A DNA stretch of 64,000 bases, taken from NCBI GenBank assembly GCA_943704415.1, contig CALSCO010000506.1:24719-88718 (forward strand). Reading direction: 5' to 3'. Position numbers and translations under genes: made by a program. The notes beneath the pieces were generated by a model. The model did no database searches, had not been told where the DNA came from, and was given only the letters and a program-made list of their open reading frames with translations. Numbering within the stretch: position 1 is the first letter of the stretch; the number at the start of each line of letters is the position of its first letter. Shown here one piece after another: positions 24,708-32,771 of this stretch. Source of the DNA: Parvularia atlantis (Eukaryota; Opisthokonta; Rotosphaerida).

Positions 24708-24810
24708 GACCAACCGGGGACTTGAACCCCGAGCCTTCTGCTGGATCAAAGTCACGTGGCGCAAAACGTTTCGTAGGAGGCAGATGCGCTATCCATTGCG
24801 CCAGTTGGTC
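24708..24810 (-). tRNA. tRNA-Arg(CCT) with 31-nt intron
   Basis: The reverse strand folds as a cloverleaf: acceptor GACCAAC pairs with GTTGGTC, D arm GCGC-AATGGATA-GCGC, anticodon stem TCTGC with GCAGA, T arm CGGGG-TTCAAGT-CCCCG. The anticodon loop reads C-T-CCT-A, then a 31-nt intron (24743-24773), then A, so the intron sits between positions 37 and 38, the canonical place for eukaryotic nuclear tRNA introns. Anticodon CCT reads the Arg codon AGG. A-box (TGGCGCAATGG) and B-box (GGTTCAAGTCC) promoters are intact. The intron contains CACGTG, which is probably coincidental. Confidence 0.95.
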
Positions 24811-26249: not shown

Positions 26250-26298
26250 GGGCTCGAAGCACGTGCCTGTTTCTCACGGTCCCAGCCAGGCGACGGTG
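26250..26298. promoter_or_regulatory. 49-bp bidirectional promoter with CACGTG
   Basis: The only DNA between the divergent TDH and SR-protein start codons. It contains CACGTG at 26260-26265. Both genes must take their core promoter and 5'UTRs from these bases or from each other's coding region. Confidence 0.5.
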
Positions 26299-27545
26299 AT
26301 GGCGGACAGGTGCGGCGCACCGCATCAACGGGCGCATCGGCGCTGACGCGGGGCGCGCGCGGGGCGGCAGGGCGCGCGAGCGCGACGACGACGCGCGCAG
26401 ACAATCAAGGTCGCGGGACCGCGAGCGCGGGCGGTCGAGGTCGAGGTCGAGGTCGAGGTCGAGGTCGCCGCCCCCGAGACGCAAGCGCTCGCGCTCGGCG
26501 TCGCCGTCGCGGTCACGCAGCGCATCGCCGGCGTCGAGCGGCAGCAGCAGCGCCGACAGCGACAGCGACAGCGACAGCAGCGCCGGGAGCGGGAGCGACG
26601 GCGGGCGGCGCGAGCACAAGCGCGCCAAGAAGGACAAGAAGGAGCGCAAGCACAAGAACAAGAAGGACAAGAAGAAGGACAAGAAGAAGAAGGACAAGAA
26701 GAAGAAGCACAAGAAGGTGCGCGACCCGTGGCGGCGCAGCGGCACGTTCAACTCAAGCACGCGCACGCACGCGCAGGACAAGAAGGCGATGCCCGGCACG
26801 TCCCTGTACGGCAACTACGGCGCGTACGGCACGCTGCGGTGCGCCCCACACGCGCGCCCCTCCCGTCCCGCGCTGACGCCCATTGTGCGCGTGCAGCGAG
26901 GTCGACCTGTTCCGCAAGCAGCCGGTGCGCCCGTGTCTGCGTTGCGCGCGCTTGTGCCGAAACTGACGTCCACGCTCTCGTCGCGCTCGCAGGAGTTCCA
27001 GGCGTGGCTGATGGACGTCAAGAAGATCTCGCCCGATGCCGTCGGCGGCCGCGAGGAGAAGACGCTCTTTGCCGAGTTTATCGAGGACTACAACACGGCG
27101 ACGATGCCGCACGAAAAGTTCGCCGCACTTTCGCCGATGCATCGCACGCCTGATACGGTCGCGGTGTCGCAGGTACTACGACCTCGAGGCGTGGGACCGC
27201 AAGGAGCGCGAGCGGCTCGAGAAGAAGCGCGTGCAGAAGGCGAGTAAGGGCCGGCCGAGCGGCGTCGACGTCAAGGCGGACGAGGACCGGATGCGGTGCG
27301 GCGATCGCGCCTCGCCGTCCAGTGCGCATATACGCTGACCGCACGCCACGCCACGCGCCAGGCAAGAGTGGCAGCAGCGTGCCGACGCCTCGCGCGCCGC
27401 AGCCGCCTCGCGCTTCTCGCTCGAGCAGATCCAGGAGCTGCGCAAGCTCGAGCACGAGCGCGTGCAGGTCGACCGCGAGCGCAAGCTCGGTATGAAGTCG
27501 CGCTCGGACGCGGGTGTGCGCTACGAAAGCCGCCTGCGCGAGTGA
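26299..27545 (+). CDS. SR/Lys-rich nuclear protein with conserved C-terminal domain
   Basis: Seven exons. Exon 1 codes only MAD plus two bases (26299-26309), and an intron to 26370 follows. The N-terminal third is RS-rich ([19 protein letters not shown]), then acidic/Ser ([17 protein letters not shown]), then strongly basic ([19 protein letters not shown]), typical of nuclear speckle proteins. The C-terminal half holds conserved blocks: [77 protein letters not shown]. The intron inside HEK/YYDLE uses a GTTCGC donor. I recognise this as a widespread family of small RNA-processing-associated proteins but cannot name the orthologue. A role in pre-mRNA splicing is inferred from composition only. 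Confidence 0.75.
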
Positions 27546-27588: not shown

Positions 27589-28738
27589 ATGGCCAGTGCG
27601 CTGCCCGCGCCGATCGTCGTCGAGCCGCTAAAGGTGAGTGAGGCTGTTGCCTTGCCACGCACTCGCGAGCTCAGCGCTGCCCGCCGTTGTCGCAGCATCC
27701 ACGCGCCGACGCCGGCGGCCAGGTGTACGTCGTCGGCGCGCTGCACGTCTCGCCGCAGAGCGCGGCCGCCGTGGCCGAGGTGATCCGCCGCCTGCAGCCG
27801 ACGGCGGTCGTGCTTGAGCTGTGCCACGGCCGGCTGCCGCTTCTGCACCTCCCTGACACCCCGCCACCTGCGCGCGCGCGGCTCGGCGTGCTCGGCGCGG
27901 CCGCCGCGGCGATGCGCAGCGGGTCGGGGATAGCCGGCGCGCTGTACGCGCTCGTCGCCGAGTCGATGAGCCGGGTGCGCGTCTCTCTTCGCCCCGTGTG
28001 ATGCGCGCATCCAACCGGCGCAGACCGGCGACAGTGCAGGCGTGACGCCCGCGGCTGAGCAGCGCGCCGCGTACCGCACGGCCAAGGAGATCGGCGCCGA
28101 GGTGATCTTCGGCGACCGTGACATCGAGGTGCTGCTCGGCGACGCGCCGCCGTCGCCTTCTCACGGCGCACAGGTGACGATGCAGCGCGCCTGGAGCACC
28201 CTCGGCGTCGTCGAGCGCGCGTGGCTGCTATGGGCGATCGTGACGGACGGCGGCCTTGGCGACTTCGACGAGTGCGTCGAGCTCGCGCCGACCGCGCGAG
28301 CGCTGATACGTGTGCGTGCGCAGGCGGCAGCTCGACGCGGCGCTGAGAGGTGACTCGGTGCAGCACGCGATCGCACAGCTGTGCGCGCTCGTGCCGTCCG
28401 CGATGGCGCCGCTGCTTCACGAGCGCGACCTGTTCCTGATGAGGCGCGCGCACGCCGCTCTGCTGGCCGTGGTGACTCTGACGCGATCAACGCGCGCCCG
28501 CAGCTCGCTCTCGCTCACCTGCCGCACGCACAAGACCGTCGTCGGCGTCGTCGGCGTGGGGCACGTCGCGGGCATCGCGCGGCACTGGGGCGAGCAGATC
28601 GACCGCGACGCGCTCACGCTGCCGCACGTGCCGTCGGCTGGCAGCAGCAGTGCACGGGGCGGCTTGTGGCTCGCGCTCGCCGTGGCCGGGCTGGGCGTGG
28701 CCGTGTGGCTGTGGACGCGGCTGCGAAGATCAGTTTGA
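27589..28738 (+). CDS. TRABD: TraB domain protein, tail-anchored
   Basis: TraB-type proteins share a fold with GXE and GH-GI motifs and sit on the mitochondrial outer membrane in animals. Here GGQVYVVGALHVSPQSAAAV (first TraB block), PTAVVLELCHGRLP (the invariant Glu), EIGAEVIFGDRDIEVLL and VVGVVGVGHVAGIARHWG (GH-GI block) are present in order. A C-terminal helix, GGLWLALAVAGLGVAVWLW, followed by RLRRSV fits a tail anchor. The first intron (donor GTGAGT) follows 15 codons. The stop codon lies only 9 bp before the ATG of the next gene on the same strand. Confidence 0.85.
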
Positions 28739-28747
28739 TCGCGTCCG

Positions 28748-30198
28748 ATGGCACTGCTGCGGTACAGACCGCAGCGCCCACTGCTGGACGTCGCCTGCGC
28801 CGCGACGATCGCGGGCGCGCTGCTGCTCGTGCTGCTGCACTTGCGCGCGTACTCGCCGCCGCCGCCCCTGCGCGCTGCGACGCTCAACGTGTGGAATGTG
28901 ATGTTCCACTGGCCGCTGCGGCTGCAGCACGTTGCCGATGAGGCGCGTGGCGGCGTCACGGCACGTCGCGCATCGCGGGCTGATGGCGTGACGTGCAGCT
29001 GCTGCGGCTGCGGCCGGACGTCGTCGCGCTGCAGGAGGTCGTGCGCGTCGGGCCGGGCGAGCGCACGCAGGCGGACGAGGTGCGCGCCGACACGAGACGT
29101 CGCGGCTCGTGCTCACGGCGGCGTTGCAGCTGGCCGATCTGCTCGGCGCACCGTACCGCTGGACGCGCTTCGCACCGGCCGCTGCAGCCGACGACCAGGG
29201 CGACGGGACGGAGGGGCGCGTCGAGGGCGTCGCGATCATCGCACGGCACCCGCTCGCCGACGTGCGCGTCGTGCCGCTGTCGCACCGACGCACCGACGCC
29301 GACACGAACCGGCGCGCGCTGCTGCGGGTTGACGTCGACGTGGCCGGCGTGGGCGTCGTACGGGTCTACGTCGCGCACATGTCGTACGAACGCACGGCAC
29401 GTCCTGATCGCGCCCGCCCCTCAACTTGACGGCTGACTGCCCGTCACGCGTAGGTGCAATGCCGCCACGCCGCCGAGATCCGCGCGTTGCTCGAGAGCGA
29501 CGACGGGCTGCCCGCGCTGCTCATGGGCGACCTCAACATCTACGCCGACCACCCCGCGCCATGGCGGCTGCTGCTCGGGACACACGCGGCCGTCGACACG
29601 GCGCAACCATGCGCGCTGAAGCCGCTACACGACGCCGGCACGCTGCTCGCGGTCGACGCGGGCCCGGACGACGCGCTGACCTTCAGCAACATGGTGCGTG
29701 CGCGCCCGTTCTCTGCAGCGTGCTGGTGCTGACGATGCGCAGCCCACGCCCGGCTTCGTCAGCCGGCCGGACCGCATCCTGCTGCTGACAGACGCGTGGC
29801 GCCCGCACCTGCGCCTGCTACACGCGGCCGTGCTCGCCAACAGCAGCGCCGCGTACGAGCGCGAGTACCGCCTACGCATCCTGCAGCGCCGCGCCGACGT
29901 CGCGCGGGCCAACGACGCGCCCTGCGGCTTCGACTGCGGGCCGCGCGGCGTGTGCCAGTGCGGCGTGTGCGTGCTGGCCGGCGCGGGCCCCGGGCGACCG
30001 CCGCGGCAGCCCTGTCCGAGCCCGTGCGCCCTGTGCGACGGTGCGTCGGCTGCGTATGCTGCTGATCGCGGCGCGGCTGACGTGCAACCAGACATGGACT
30101 CGCCAGCAGCCCGCGAGCTCGTGCACGGCGCGACCATGCCCGAGGAGTTCCATGCGTCCGACCACCTGCTGCTTGTGGCAGACTTTGCACAGGAGTGA
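28748..30198 (+). CDS. Membrane-anchored endonuclease/exonuclease/phosphatase (EEP) family protein
   Basis: An N-terminal membrane helix (LLDVACAATIAGALLLVLLHL, residues about 12-32) is followed by the EEP fold: ATLNVWNVMFHW (Asn of the metal site), RPDVVALQEVV (metal-binding Glu), GVAIIARHPLADVRVVPLS, VYVAHMSYE, LPALLMGDLNIYAD (GDLN) and the C-terminal ASDHLLLVADF (SDH catalytic pair). The family includes neutral sphingomyelinases, inositol phosphatases and DNases; the membrane anchor favours a lipid substrate but does not prove it. An unusual Cys-rich insertion (CGFDCGPRGVCQCGVCV and PCPSPCALC) lies before the SDH block. The gene starts 9 bp after the previous stop and ends 5 bp before the next ATG. 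Confidence 0.82.
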
Positions 30199-30203
30199 TC
30201 ACG

Positions 30204-30649
30204 ATGACTGCGGACGATGTGTGGCTGCAGGCGGCCGCGCTCGGCATGATCGTGCTCGCACACGGCCTGACCAACTTTGGCGTGCTGCTGCCGTGGATGG
30301 GCGTGTCGCTGCACGTGCGTGCCGTCGGCGCTGCGCCGCGCTGCGCTGCTGAAGGGCGTGCGGGGCGCGGCAGACGGCGCTGCGCCTCATCACCATCAAC
30401 CTGCTGCCGAGCATGATCTACGTGTGCTACTACAAGGCGTGCACGACCGGTGCGTCGTCCGCCCGGCGCAGCGCGCGCGTCTGATCGCGCCCGCGCAGCG
30501 CCCGGCCACGTGCCGCCCGGGTGGACGCCGCCCGGCGAGGTCGTCGACGCGGTGACGGTCGAGATGGACGCCGATGCCGCACGCGACGCCCTTGTGCTGC
30601 CGCCCACCGGGGCTCAGGGCGCGGTACCGGGCGCGGCCGTGGCCAATCG

Positions 30650-30683
<34 letters not shown>

Positions 30684-31704
30684 GGCAATGGCAGCCCGGG
30701 GTGGCGGGTGGCGGGGCGACGCGCGCGCTTCTGCAAGAAATGCTCGGCGCACAAGCCAATGCGCGCGCACCACTGCTCCCAGTGCAACCGGTGCGTGCGC
30801 CGTGTGCCGTGCGCGGTTGTTGTTGACGGCGTGTGGCGCAGCTGCGTGCTCAAGATGGACCACCATTGTCAGCCCTCGTTGCGACACACGCCTCAACGCT
30901 GATGTGCGCGCACGCTGCGCAGGCCCCTGGCTCAACAACTGCGTCGGGTTCCACAACCACGCGCACTTCTTCCGCTTCTTGTTCTACGTCGTCGTGTCGT
31001 GCGCGCTCGCGCTCGTGCTGCTCGTGTCGCGCCTGATGGCGATCGATGTGACGCCGCGCGGGCGATACTCGGTGCGTACGCCCCGCCCGCGTCCGCACGA
31101 CGGCACCGCTCACACGACCGTGCCCACGCGTCCGCAGAAGGTCAGCATTGAGCCGCTCGAGGTCATGAGCCTGGCCGTGTCGATGATCATCGTCGTGCCC
31201 ATGCTGTTGCTCGTCGGCTTCCTGTTTGCGTTCCACTGCTACTACATCATGGTGCGCCGCCGCTTAGCACGGCCCAACACGGCCACGGTCGCCCGTTGAG
31301 CCCCTGCGACAAACAGATGAACACGACGACGATCGAGAGCCTCGAGGTAGACTTCCGCGCGGACGACAGCAAGCCCAAGCCCGCCGGCGAGCCTTCCGAC
31401 AAGAGCAAGGCGGTGCGCGGCGCGGCGTGCGCGTGCAACTTCAGACCTGATGGTCGAGGCAGCGCAACAACCCGTACTACCTCTCGGTGTACCGCAACAT
31501 CTGCGCTGTGCTGGGCCCGCATCCGGCGCTGTGGCTGCTGCCGGTGGCGACGCCGGGCGACGGGCTGAGCTTCCCGGTCAACAAGTACTTTGAGGAGGAC
31601 GCGACGCGCGGTGCGCTTTTCGGTGGCGCGCGACGACAAGCGAAACCGACGCTGGCGCAGGCTTTATCGAGGCGTCACACTCGGACGACGAGCACGACGC
31701 GTGA
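30204..31704 (+). CDS. DHHC palmitoyltransferase
   Basis: S-acylates proteins on endomembranes. Nine exons; two N-terminal membrane segments ([20 protein letters not shown] and [16 protein letters not shown]), then a long linker with poly-Ser, then the Cys-rich domain ([38 protein letters not shown]). Two further membrane helices ([19 protein letters not shown] and [16 protein letters not shown]) and the TTxE motif (TTIE) follow, then [18 protein letters not shown] and an acidic tail. The catalytic Cys codon of DHHC is itself split by an intron (T in one exon, GC in the next; donor GTCAGC). The usual DPG motif reads APG. Start ATG 30204 is 5 bp after the preceding stop. Confidence 0.9.
30651..30680 (+). 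repeat. (AGC)10 microsatellite encoding poly-Ser
   Basis: Ten AGC codons in the linker of the DHHC enzyme, coding a serine tract and followed by NGNG. Expected to vary in length between strains. Confidence 0.9.
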
Positions 31705-31848
31705 CTTTCATAGCGTGCGAAACGCTGTACGGTAGCATGCGGACAAGCAGCAAAGGCGAACTCGTCCAAGCAAAGCGAACGAGCGCAAACACGACCAGAG
31801 GCGTAACTCGTCCACGTGGCCACAGTTGTCTGGCGGGCGCGAACAGTC

Positions 31849-32771
31849 ATGGCCGCGCGGATCGTGCGCCGTCTGCGCTCGACCGTCGCCACCGCGCCGC
31901 TGCCGGGTCAGCCGCGGATCGTGCGGCTGGACGACGGCGTGCTCGAGAACCTGCAGAGCAACTTCCGCGAGTATCAGGAGGTGCGGTGCTGTTTGCTGCG
32001 CAGCCCGCTCACGTCTCGCGCAGACCGGGCCGCCCACGACCAAGTCGATGAAGCAGCTCGTCCGCGCCGAGCTCACGCAGAAGCGGCGCGAGTACCTGCT
32101 CGAGGTCGAGGCCAAGCGGCGCGCACAGTTGGCGGCGCTGGCCGAGCGCGAGCGCGAGCGCGAGGCGCAGCGCGAGGAGAACCGGCGGCTGCGCGAGGAG
32201 ACCAAGGCGCGCACGCGGCGCATGGTCGAGCTGCGCGAGCAGCGCCGGTGCGTGCGCGCGCGCGCGCGCCTACCATCGGCACGGCAACTGAGCCGCACGG
32301 CCGCAGGCTCGAGGACGCCGCCGTGGCGCAGGCGCAGCGCACGGAGCAGGCGCAGGCGCGGGCGCGCTACGAGCACACGCGTACGCGCGCCGTCGCTGCT
32401 GTATCGGCTGCCGCGCGCTCAGAACGCCGCGCGCAGACAAGCGGCTCATGCTCGAGAACCTCACGTTCAAGGGGCGCTCGTTCGTGACGCGTGAGCGCAT
32501 CGACGCGTACGTGCAGAAGATGCTCGAGTCGACCGTGTCGTACAACGTCGGCCTGCCCATCCAGGAGGTCTATCCGGACGAGCTCAACACGGTGCGGCGC
32601 GGCGGGTACGGGGCGCGTGGCTGACGGCGGCACACACAGGGCCTCGACGACAGCACGTCGGCCATGGATGACCCGTTCCCGCTCTGGCAGCAGTACCACC
32701 CGCCGGACCTGAGCGCGTTCACGTTCTACCAGCAGTACGACGCGGACCCGGCCGACTCGGAACGAGAGTGA
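31849..32771 (+). CDS. MRPS26: Mitochondrial small-subunit ribosomal protein mS26-like
   Basis: The N-terminus MAARIVRRLRSTVATAPLPG has a mitochondrial targeting character. A long, highly charged helix (KSMKQLVRAELTQKRREYLL, EREREREAQREENRRLREE) is followed by LTFKGRSFVTRERIDAYVQK and STVSYNVGLPIQEVYPDE. These match the mS26 pattern, where a long coiled helix is followed by a F-ITREN...YN segment. The C-terminus is Pro/Tyr/acidic (YQQYDADPADSERE). At least four short introns. The alternative is another mitochondrial coiled-coil protein; helix composition alone is weak evidence, so confidence is moderate. A CACGTG (31813-31818) lies 31 bp upstream of the ATG. Confidence 0.6.

Follow-up and report, generated by a model that had tools for sequence, protein, structure and literature searches.

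In Glarea lozoyensis, the spacer IGG1 joins genes of a natural operon. IGG6, a 9-bp spacer with IGG1 as its parent, allows a second open reading frame (ORF) to be expressed in S. cerevisiae, P. pastoris, Y. lipolytica and Aspergillus nidulans, and re-initiation is indicated by blocking tests made downstream of TDH3 in S. cerevisiae (PMC10352335). In some Agaricomycetes, as many as 8% of transcribed genes take part in polycistronic mRNAs, whose ORFs lie on average 364 nt apart (PMC4503453), and highly expressed bicistrons of budding yeast have shorter, GC-richer spacers (PMC8573964). In green algae, leaky scanning requires that the first start be weak and that AUGs be scarce ahead of the second ORF (PMC11892635). 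Encephalitozoon cuniculi, with 5' untranslated regions (UTRs) of less than 7 nt and transcription overrun, provides a precedent for separate transcripts that overlap (PMC2803860). Here, we describe a locus of Parvularia atlantis (NCBI GenBank assembly GCA_943704415.1, contig CALSCO010000506.1) in which three protein genes of different families lie on one strand and are separated, stop to start, by 9 and 5 bp. The whole stretch of DNA analysed, 64,000 nucleotides from position 24,719 to 88,718 of the forward strand, is called the window, and locus positions refer to it. Compact eukaryotic genomes probe the minimum space that a gene's control signals need. The two leading readings of the locus, separate overlapping transcripts and one mRNA with re-initiation, would each be a kind of arrangement already known in fungi, and spacing alone does not decide whether the three genes share one mRNA.

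The genes and the gaps between them are as follows:

27589..28738, plus strand: TraB/PrgY/gumN-family gene (TraB), 308 amino acids (aa); Pfam TraB_PrgY_gumN, E 7.5e-12
27589-27633, 27696-27974, 28024-28271, 28324-28443 and 28504-28738, plus strand: exons of TraB
28739..28747, plus strand: gap between TraB and EEP, 9 bp, TCGCGTCCG
28748..30198, plus strand: endonuclease/exonuclease/phosphatase (EEP) gene, 412 aa; Pfam Exo_endo_phos, E 3.3e-16
28748-28942, 28999-29079, 29130-29396, 29454-29693 and 29743-30198, plus strand: exons of EEP
30199..30203, plus strand: gap between EEP and DHHC, 5 bp, TCACG; the frame shifts between the two genes
30204..31704, plus strand: DHHC palmitoyltransferase gene (DHHC), 351 aa, 9 exons; Pfam DHHC, E 1.4e-38

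Genes were read by hand and with a purpose-written, splice-aware gene finder, self-trained from a seed of the hand-read TraB, EEP and DHHC exons. The first gap runs from the TraB stop (TGA, 28736-28738) to the EEP ATG at 28748, with coordinates and frames checked, and the second from the EEP stop (TGA, 30196-30198) to the DHHC ATG at 30204. A sequence-only reading of this stretch had reported both gap lengths, and they proved exact once the spliced genes were rebuilt; it was also correct that no room is left between the genes for separate UTRs, a terminator and a promoter. The observation is thus correct, and somewhat extreme. TraB and EEP share a reading frame that one TGA interrupts (28736-28750), and read-through of this stop would yield a fused protein. 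The locus was found once in the assembly, and a scan of the window gave 0 matches to RNA families (Rfam) or tRNAs.

The individual gene models are supported by homology. Excision of the GC-AG intron at 28444-28503 takes the Pfam E-value of TraB from 1.3e-8 to 7.5e-12, and two of the four EEP introns are likewise GC-AG. The sole match of the EEP protein in a PDB search was 4ruw (E 1.8e-11). A later EEP start is hardly possible: the Pfam match already starts at residue 49, ahead of the next in-frame ATG (residue 52). The DHHCPW core of the DHHC protein is assembled across two introns, and intron 30868-30922 of this gene, which has an odd donor and a score below 97% of predicted introns, was picked by homology. 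The same gene carries ten AGC repeats (30651-30680), a serine run between the first hydrophobic stretch and the zinc-binding core. GC-AG introns begin at 28444 in TraB and at 28943 and 29397 in EEP, and they make up 101 of the 870 introns (11.6%) in our own, RNA-unchecked predictions across 249 kb. Annotated fungi average 1.009% (PMC7072748), less than a tenth of this predicted share.

The assembly comprises 16.25 Mb in 616 contigs at ~70% GC, with many short predicted introns (median 57 nt). Gap lengths were collected from 308,938 bp of it, in which 145 genes with 100 or more codons were predicted; shorter genes were removed before pairing, and the hand models of TraB, EEP and DHHC were substituted for the gene finder's predictions before counting. 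The pairs are few (58 tandem, 39 divergent and 38 convergent), their gap lengths hinge on right start codons, the gene finder forbids overlapping genes, and two suspected artefact pairs (contig C5 at 19123 and contig C20 at 5236) were retained in the counts. Gaps of 10 bp or less separate 3/58 tandem, 1/39 divergent and 0/38 convergent pairs. Two of the three tandem cases are those of this locus, while the third (on C5) appears by eye to be one PP2C gene cut by a missed intron, and the sole divergent pair is by eye a low-complexity false gene. The next-shortest tandem gap, between an Spc7 gene and a leucine-rich-repeat (LRR) gene, measures 17 bp. The 9- and 5-bp gaps are the two shortest credible ones among 58 tandem gaps in 309 kb. 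A further tight tandem run, of Spc7, the LRR protein and GINS Sld5, occupies positions 18422-27902 of contig C50, its genes separated by 17 and 39 bp.

Median gaps are 144.5 bp for tandem, 163 bp for divergent and 72 bp for convergent pairs, and gaps of 50 bp or less occur in 12/58, 8/39 and 13/38 of them, respectively (each of the first two counts includes one suspected artefact). When tandem pairs are compared with the other orientations, neither cut-off separates them (3/58 versus 1/77 at 10 bp or less, p = 0.31; p = 0.42 at 50 bp or less). Packing is compact in all orientations, as in a compact genome with overlapping transcripts. Divergent pairs, which are never co-transcribed, often have close starts as well (8/39 within 50 bp of each other), so that gaps with no space for two sets of UTRs and promoters are common in this genome, and a short gap by itself lends weak support to a shared transcript. 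The step from short gap to polycistron that the sequence-only reading implied is therefore weakened by the tight packing of divergent and convergent neighbours.

These results are consistent with ordinary tight packing in a small genome rich in GC and introns, in which the three genes would be transcribed mainly singly and their mature mRNAs would overlap. We adopt this reading tentatively, with somewhat short of even confidence, and it is slightly favoured over a tricistron with re-initiation. The EEP promoter and a very short 5' UTR would lie within the end of TraB, and those of DHHC within the end of EEP, while the TraB and EEP 3' UTRs may each extend into the following gene, so that mature mRNAs overlap. 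Some read-through mRNAs with two or three ORFs would probably be made too, with the downstream ORFs little translated or translated by re-initiation.

Several results weigh against separate transcripts, and they bear on the alternative of a single TraB-EEP-DHHC mRNA, with one promoter before TraB, one 3' end after DHHC, and ribosomes that are retained past each stop and re-initiate 5-9 nt on, as has been proposed for the fungal IGG spacers. This alternative is slightly less probable than separate transcripts. In a two-flank model, every gene has a 5' and a 3' flank of its own, and the middle of the tandem distribution should equal the average of a divergent and a convergent gap; the expected tandem median of 143.75 bp is close to the observed 144.5 bp, a match that favours separate transcripts. 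However, very short tandem gaps are over-represented, which favours a single mRNA: gaps of 50 bp or less are seen in 12/58 tandem pairs against 11% expected (binomial p 0.02), those of 20 bp or less in 4/58 against 0.5% (p 0.0002), and those of 10 bp or less in 3/58 against 0. Both tails are understated by the model, which averages gap pairs, and a likely artefact is among the four gaps of 20 bp or less; the excess is a hint only.

The distribution of a candidate promoter word points in the same direction. In the 100 nt upstream of 105 genes, CACGTG was counted 31 times against 7.0 expected, with copies common to divergent genes counted twice. Across gaps of 100 bp or less (extended by 50 bp on each side), the word is present in 9/14 divergent but only 3/22 tandem gaps (Fisher p 0.003; p 0.002 when two promoters are allowed per divergent gap; both values are unadjusted, several words and cut-offs having been tried). 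This scarcity suggests that a promoter of such a kind is missing from some tightly spaced tandem genes. The word is concentrated in tight divergent gaps, as if it were a bidirectional-promoter element. The CACGTG at 28625, 123 bp ahead of the EEP start, was rejected as proof of a promoter: it lies inside TraB coding sequence, where the word is also found by chance.

TGTGT, T runs and A runs are enriched in 3' regions, and TGTGT, T5 or A5 is found within 120 nt past the stop in 7/12 tandem pairs with 20-60-bp gaps, compared with 60/1453 coding pieces. Because of this, close tandem neighbours appear often to make their own 3' ends, and the retention of such signals in most other tight tandem gaps argues against a single mRNA here. 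Among tandem gaps of less than 20 bp, these words follow the stop in 1/4, and the one is EEP, whose TGTGT lies 20 nt past the stop. This too speaks against a single mRNA, as far as words of a kind present in 4% of coding pieces can. TraB has none of TGTGT, T5 and A5 in 150 nt; in the same test, about half of all genes lack them.

A composition score was used to tell flank-like from coding stretches, with an area under the curve of 0.915 for upstream and 0.931 for 3' stretches (contigs held out in turn); for the locus scores, the locus's own contig (C127) was held out and TraB, EEP and DHHC were excluded from the coding model. The surroundings of the three genes are as follows:

26260..26265, no strand: CACGTG, between a divergent minus-strand gene (start 26249) and the SCI1/SR-25-like gene (start 26299)
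26299..27545, plus strand: SCI1/SR-25-like gene, 242 aa, 6 introns; gene-finder model
31705..31848, plus strand: flank 3' of DHHC, 144 bp, with CACGTG at 31813, 36 bp ahead of the next start
31849..32771, plus strand: MRP-S26-like gene, the next on this strand, 238 aa; Pfam MRP-S26, E 5.4e-8

The outer flanks look like real flanks: the stretch upstream of TraB scores above 96.7% of coding pieces, that 3' of the SCI1-like gene above 99.3%, and the first 60 nt 3' of DHHC above 99.6%. The inner junctions score low (EEP upstream, 69%; DHHC upstream, 87%; TraB 3', 81%; EEP 3', 76%), and the scores as a group outline a TraB-EEP-DHHC unit, in agreement with a tricistron. However, nearly all of the sequence at the inner junctions is coding, and low scores are expected there under any model. 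In favour of separate transcription, at tight tandem starts with a neighbour less than 60 bp upstream (n=16), the 60-nt upstream stretch lies above 95% of coding pieces in 9 and above 97% in 6.

The SCI1/SR-25-like protein upstream of TraB matches Pfam SR-25 at 36.4 bits, under the family cut-off of 40. Its stop at 27545 is followed by the TraB start at 27589, leaving a same-strand gap of 43 bp that was absent from the sequence-only reading. The divergent minus-strand gene looks TDH-like by eye.

The gaps themselves also bear on re-initiation. Their sizes match the 9-bp IGG6 (PMC10352335). Between themselves, the two gap sequences have just TC-R-CG in common, which counts against the single-mRNA reading. 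TGATC was considered as a start-proximal word common to EEP and DHHC and was dropped: it occurs in the 40 nt before 9/142 genes (6.3%), barely enriched over coding pieces (4.1%). The longer TGATCRCG is found before 3/142 starts versus 0.64% of coding pieces, and two of the three are EEP and DHHC. Re-initiation after long ORFs is also rare in eukaryotes. The most specific version of the single-mRNA alternative, a native TraB-EEP-DHHC tricistron of an early-diverging fungus with stop-start re-initiation over 9 and 5 nt (TGA-TC-R-CG...ATG) and with all products membrane-tied, is rather unlikely.

The sequence-only reading had proposed that all three products may act at membranes, and hydropathy agrees: TraB has one hydrophobic stretch near its C-terminus (282-302), EEP has one near its N-terminus (10-35), and DHHC has three regions, whereas no hydrophobic stretch was found by hydropathy in the upstream SCI1-like protein. 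Such stretches are too common a feature to carry weight, and the membrane link would be at most a weak sign of common function.

A different possibility is that TraB and EEP are one gene, joined either by an intron (28703-28774 is the gene finder's pick) or by read-through of the in-frame TGA. The gene finder merged the two in all three settings, the loosest of which also merged the SCI1-like gene, and it scored the fused path at -3.6 versus -13.5 for separate genes; the shared frame of the two ORFs fits as well. However, the TraB tail (-7.7) accounts for much of the low separate-gene score, and the bridging intron is among the weakest 4% of predicted introns and was equalled or bettered at 26.5% of 1500 artificial gene junctions. 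It would cost TraB its last 11 residues, including the end of the hydrophobic stretch, and EEP its first 9. EEP and DHHC were left unfused by the gene finder. A TraB-EEP fusion is thus improbable.

Trans-splicing was the third option of the sequence-only reading, beside overlapping transcripts and dicistronic mRNA, and its likelihood depends in part on lineage. An Spc7 kinetochore domain (E 2.7e-26) is encoded by one of the predicted genes of contig C50. There are also 15 matches to TIGR03443 (alpha-aminoadipate reductase), aligned along one stretch of contig C181; none reaches the family cut-off, and 12/14 control genomes matched too, making this a weak lineage sign. Together, these matches suggest that the lineage is probably fungal. 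A PDB search with a TBC-domain segment gave five hits, GYP1 and TBC1D22A among them, and did not help to place the lineage.

If a polycistronic pre-mRNA were resolved to monocistronic mRNAs by spliced-leader (SL) trans-splicing, acceptor sites would be expected ahead of EEP and DHHC. Here, acceptors were scored with a cis-acceptor model. AG sites are indeed available, the best of them 19 nt ahead of the EEP start and 11 nt ahead of the DHHC start, and acceptor-like sites scoring at least 6 are found in 10% of 105 pre-gene, 4% of 103 post-stop and 1% of antisense genic pieces, a pattern to which cis-introns in 5' UTRs would lead likewise. However, the 90 nt ahead of EEP score no higher than 1.7 and those ahead of DHHC no higher than 2.5, while about half of control stretches reach at least 3. 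The Rfam scan, which covered the window, showed no SL RNA. Moreover, SL trans-splicing is reported absent from fungi (PMC7986045), and the lineage is probably fungal. This option is the least probable of all; the other two options of the sequence-only reading stand as the right candidates.

Leaky scanning of a dicistronic mRNA, as described for green algae, is scarcely more credible. Tandem ORFs with a very short gap recall the 14-nt inter-ORF of REX1 in Auxenochlorella (PMC11892635). However, 7 AUGs (the TraB start counted) would have to be passed before EEP and 14 more before DHHC. There is no AUG depletion, with observed/expected ratios of 1.09 for TraB (46th percentile of the genome's genes; the ratio is from a 328-aa model, and the 308-aa model likewise has 7 AUGs) and 1.77 for EEP (95th percentile), and the TraB start context is average (44th percentile), not weak. 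Thus, spliced leaders and leaky scanning are unneeded and do not fit.

The separate-transcript reading and the single-mRNA reading have different consequences. If the genes are transcribed separately, promoters and 3' ends would lie in neighbouring coding sequence. If they share one mRNA, the locus would be a natural fungal case in which ribosomes re-initiate after long ORFs, over spacers no longer than the engineered IGG6.

When compared with known systems, the locus shares some features with each and differs in others. Nematode and tunicate SL operons have the same tight same-strand spacing, with a median of 1 bp in one predicted Ciona operon set, whereas here no good acceptor lies ahead of the downstream ORFs and the lineage is probably fungal (PMC7986045). 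Bicistronic loci of green algae also place two ORFs a few nucleotides apart, but with the AUG depletion and weak first start that are not seen here (PMC11892635). The read-through transcripts of Agaricomycetes likewise involve tandem genes; there, the mean inter-ORF distance is 364 nt and the genes are also transcribed independently (PMC4503453). TraB, the first ORF here, shows none of the three 3' words, a lack that about half of all genes share. With the overlapping and multi-gene transcripts of microsporidia, the locus has in common a compact genome and flanks too short for separate UTRs, although this genome, at 16 Mb and ~70% GC, is intron-dense (PMC2803860). For the Glarea lozoyensis IGG1 operon and its IGG6 spacer, experiments demonstrated both co-transcription and the coupling of translation, whereas the present arrangement is known from spacing; the two are alike in joining complete, same-strand fungal ORFs (probably so in the present lineage) across a very short spacer, which in IGG6 is likewise 9 bp (PMC10352335).

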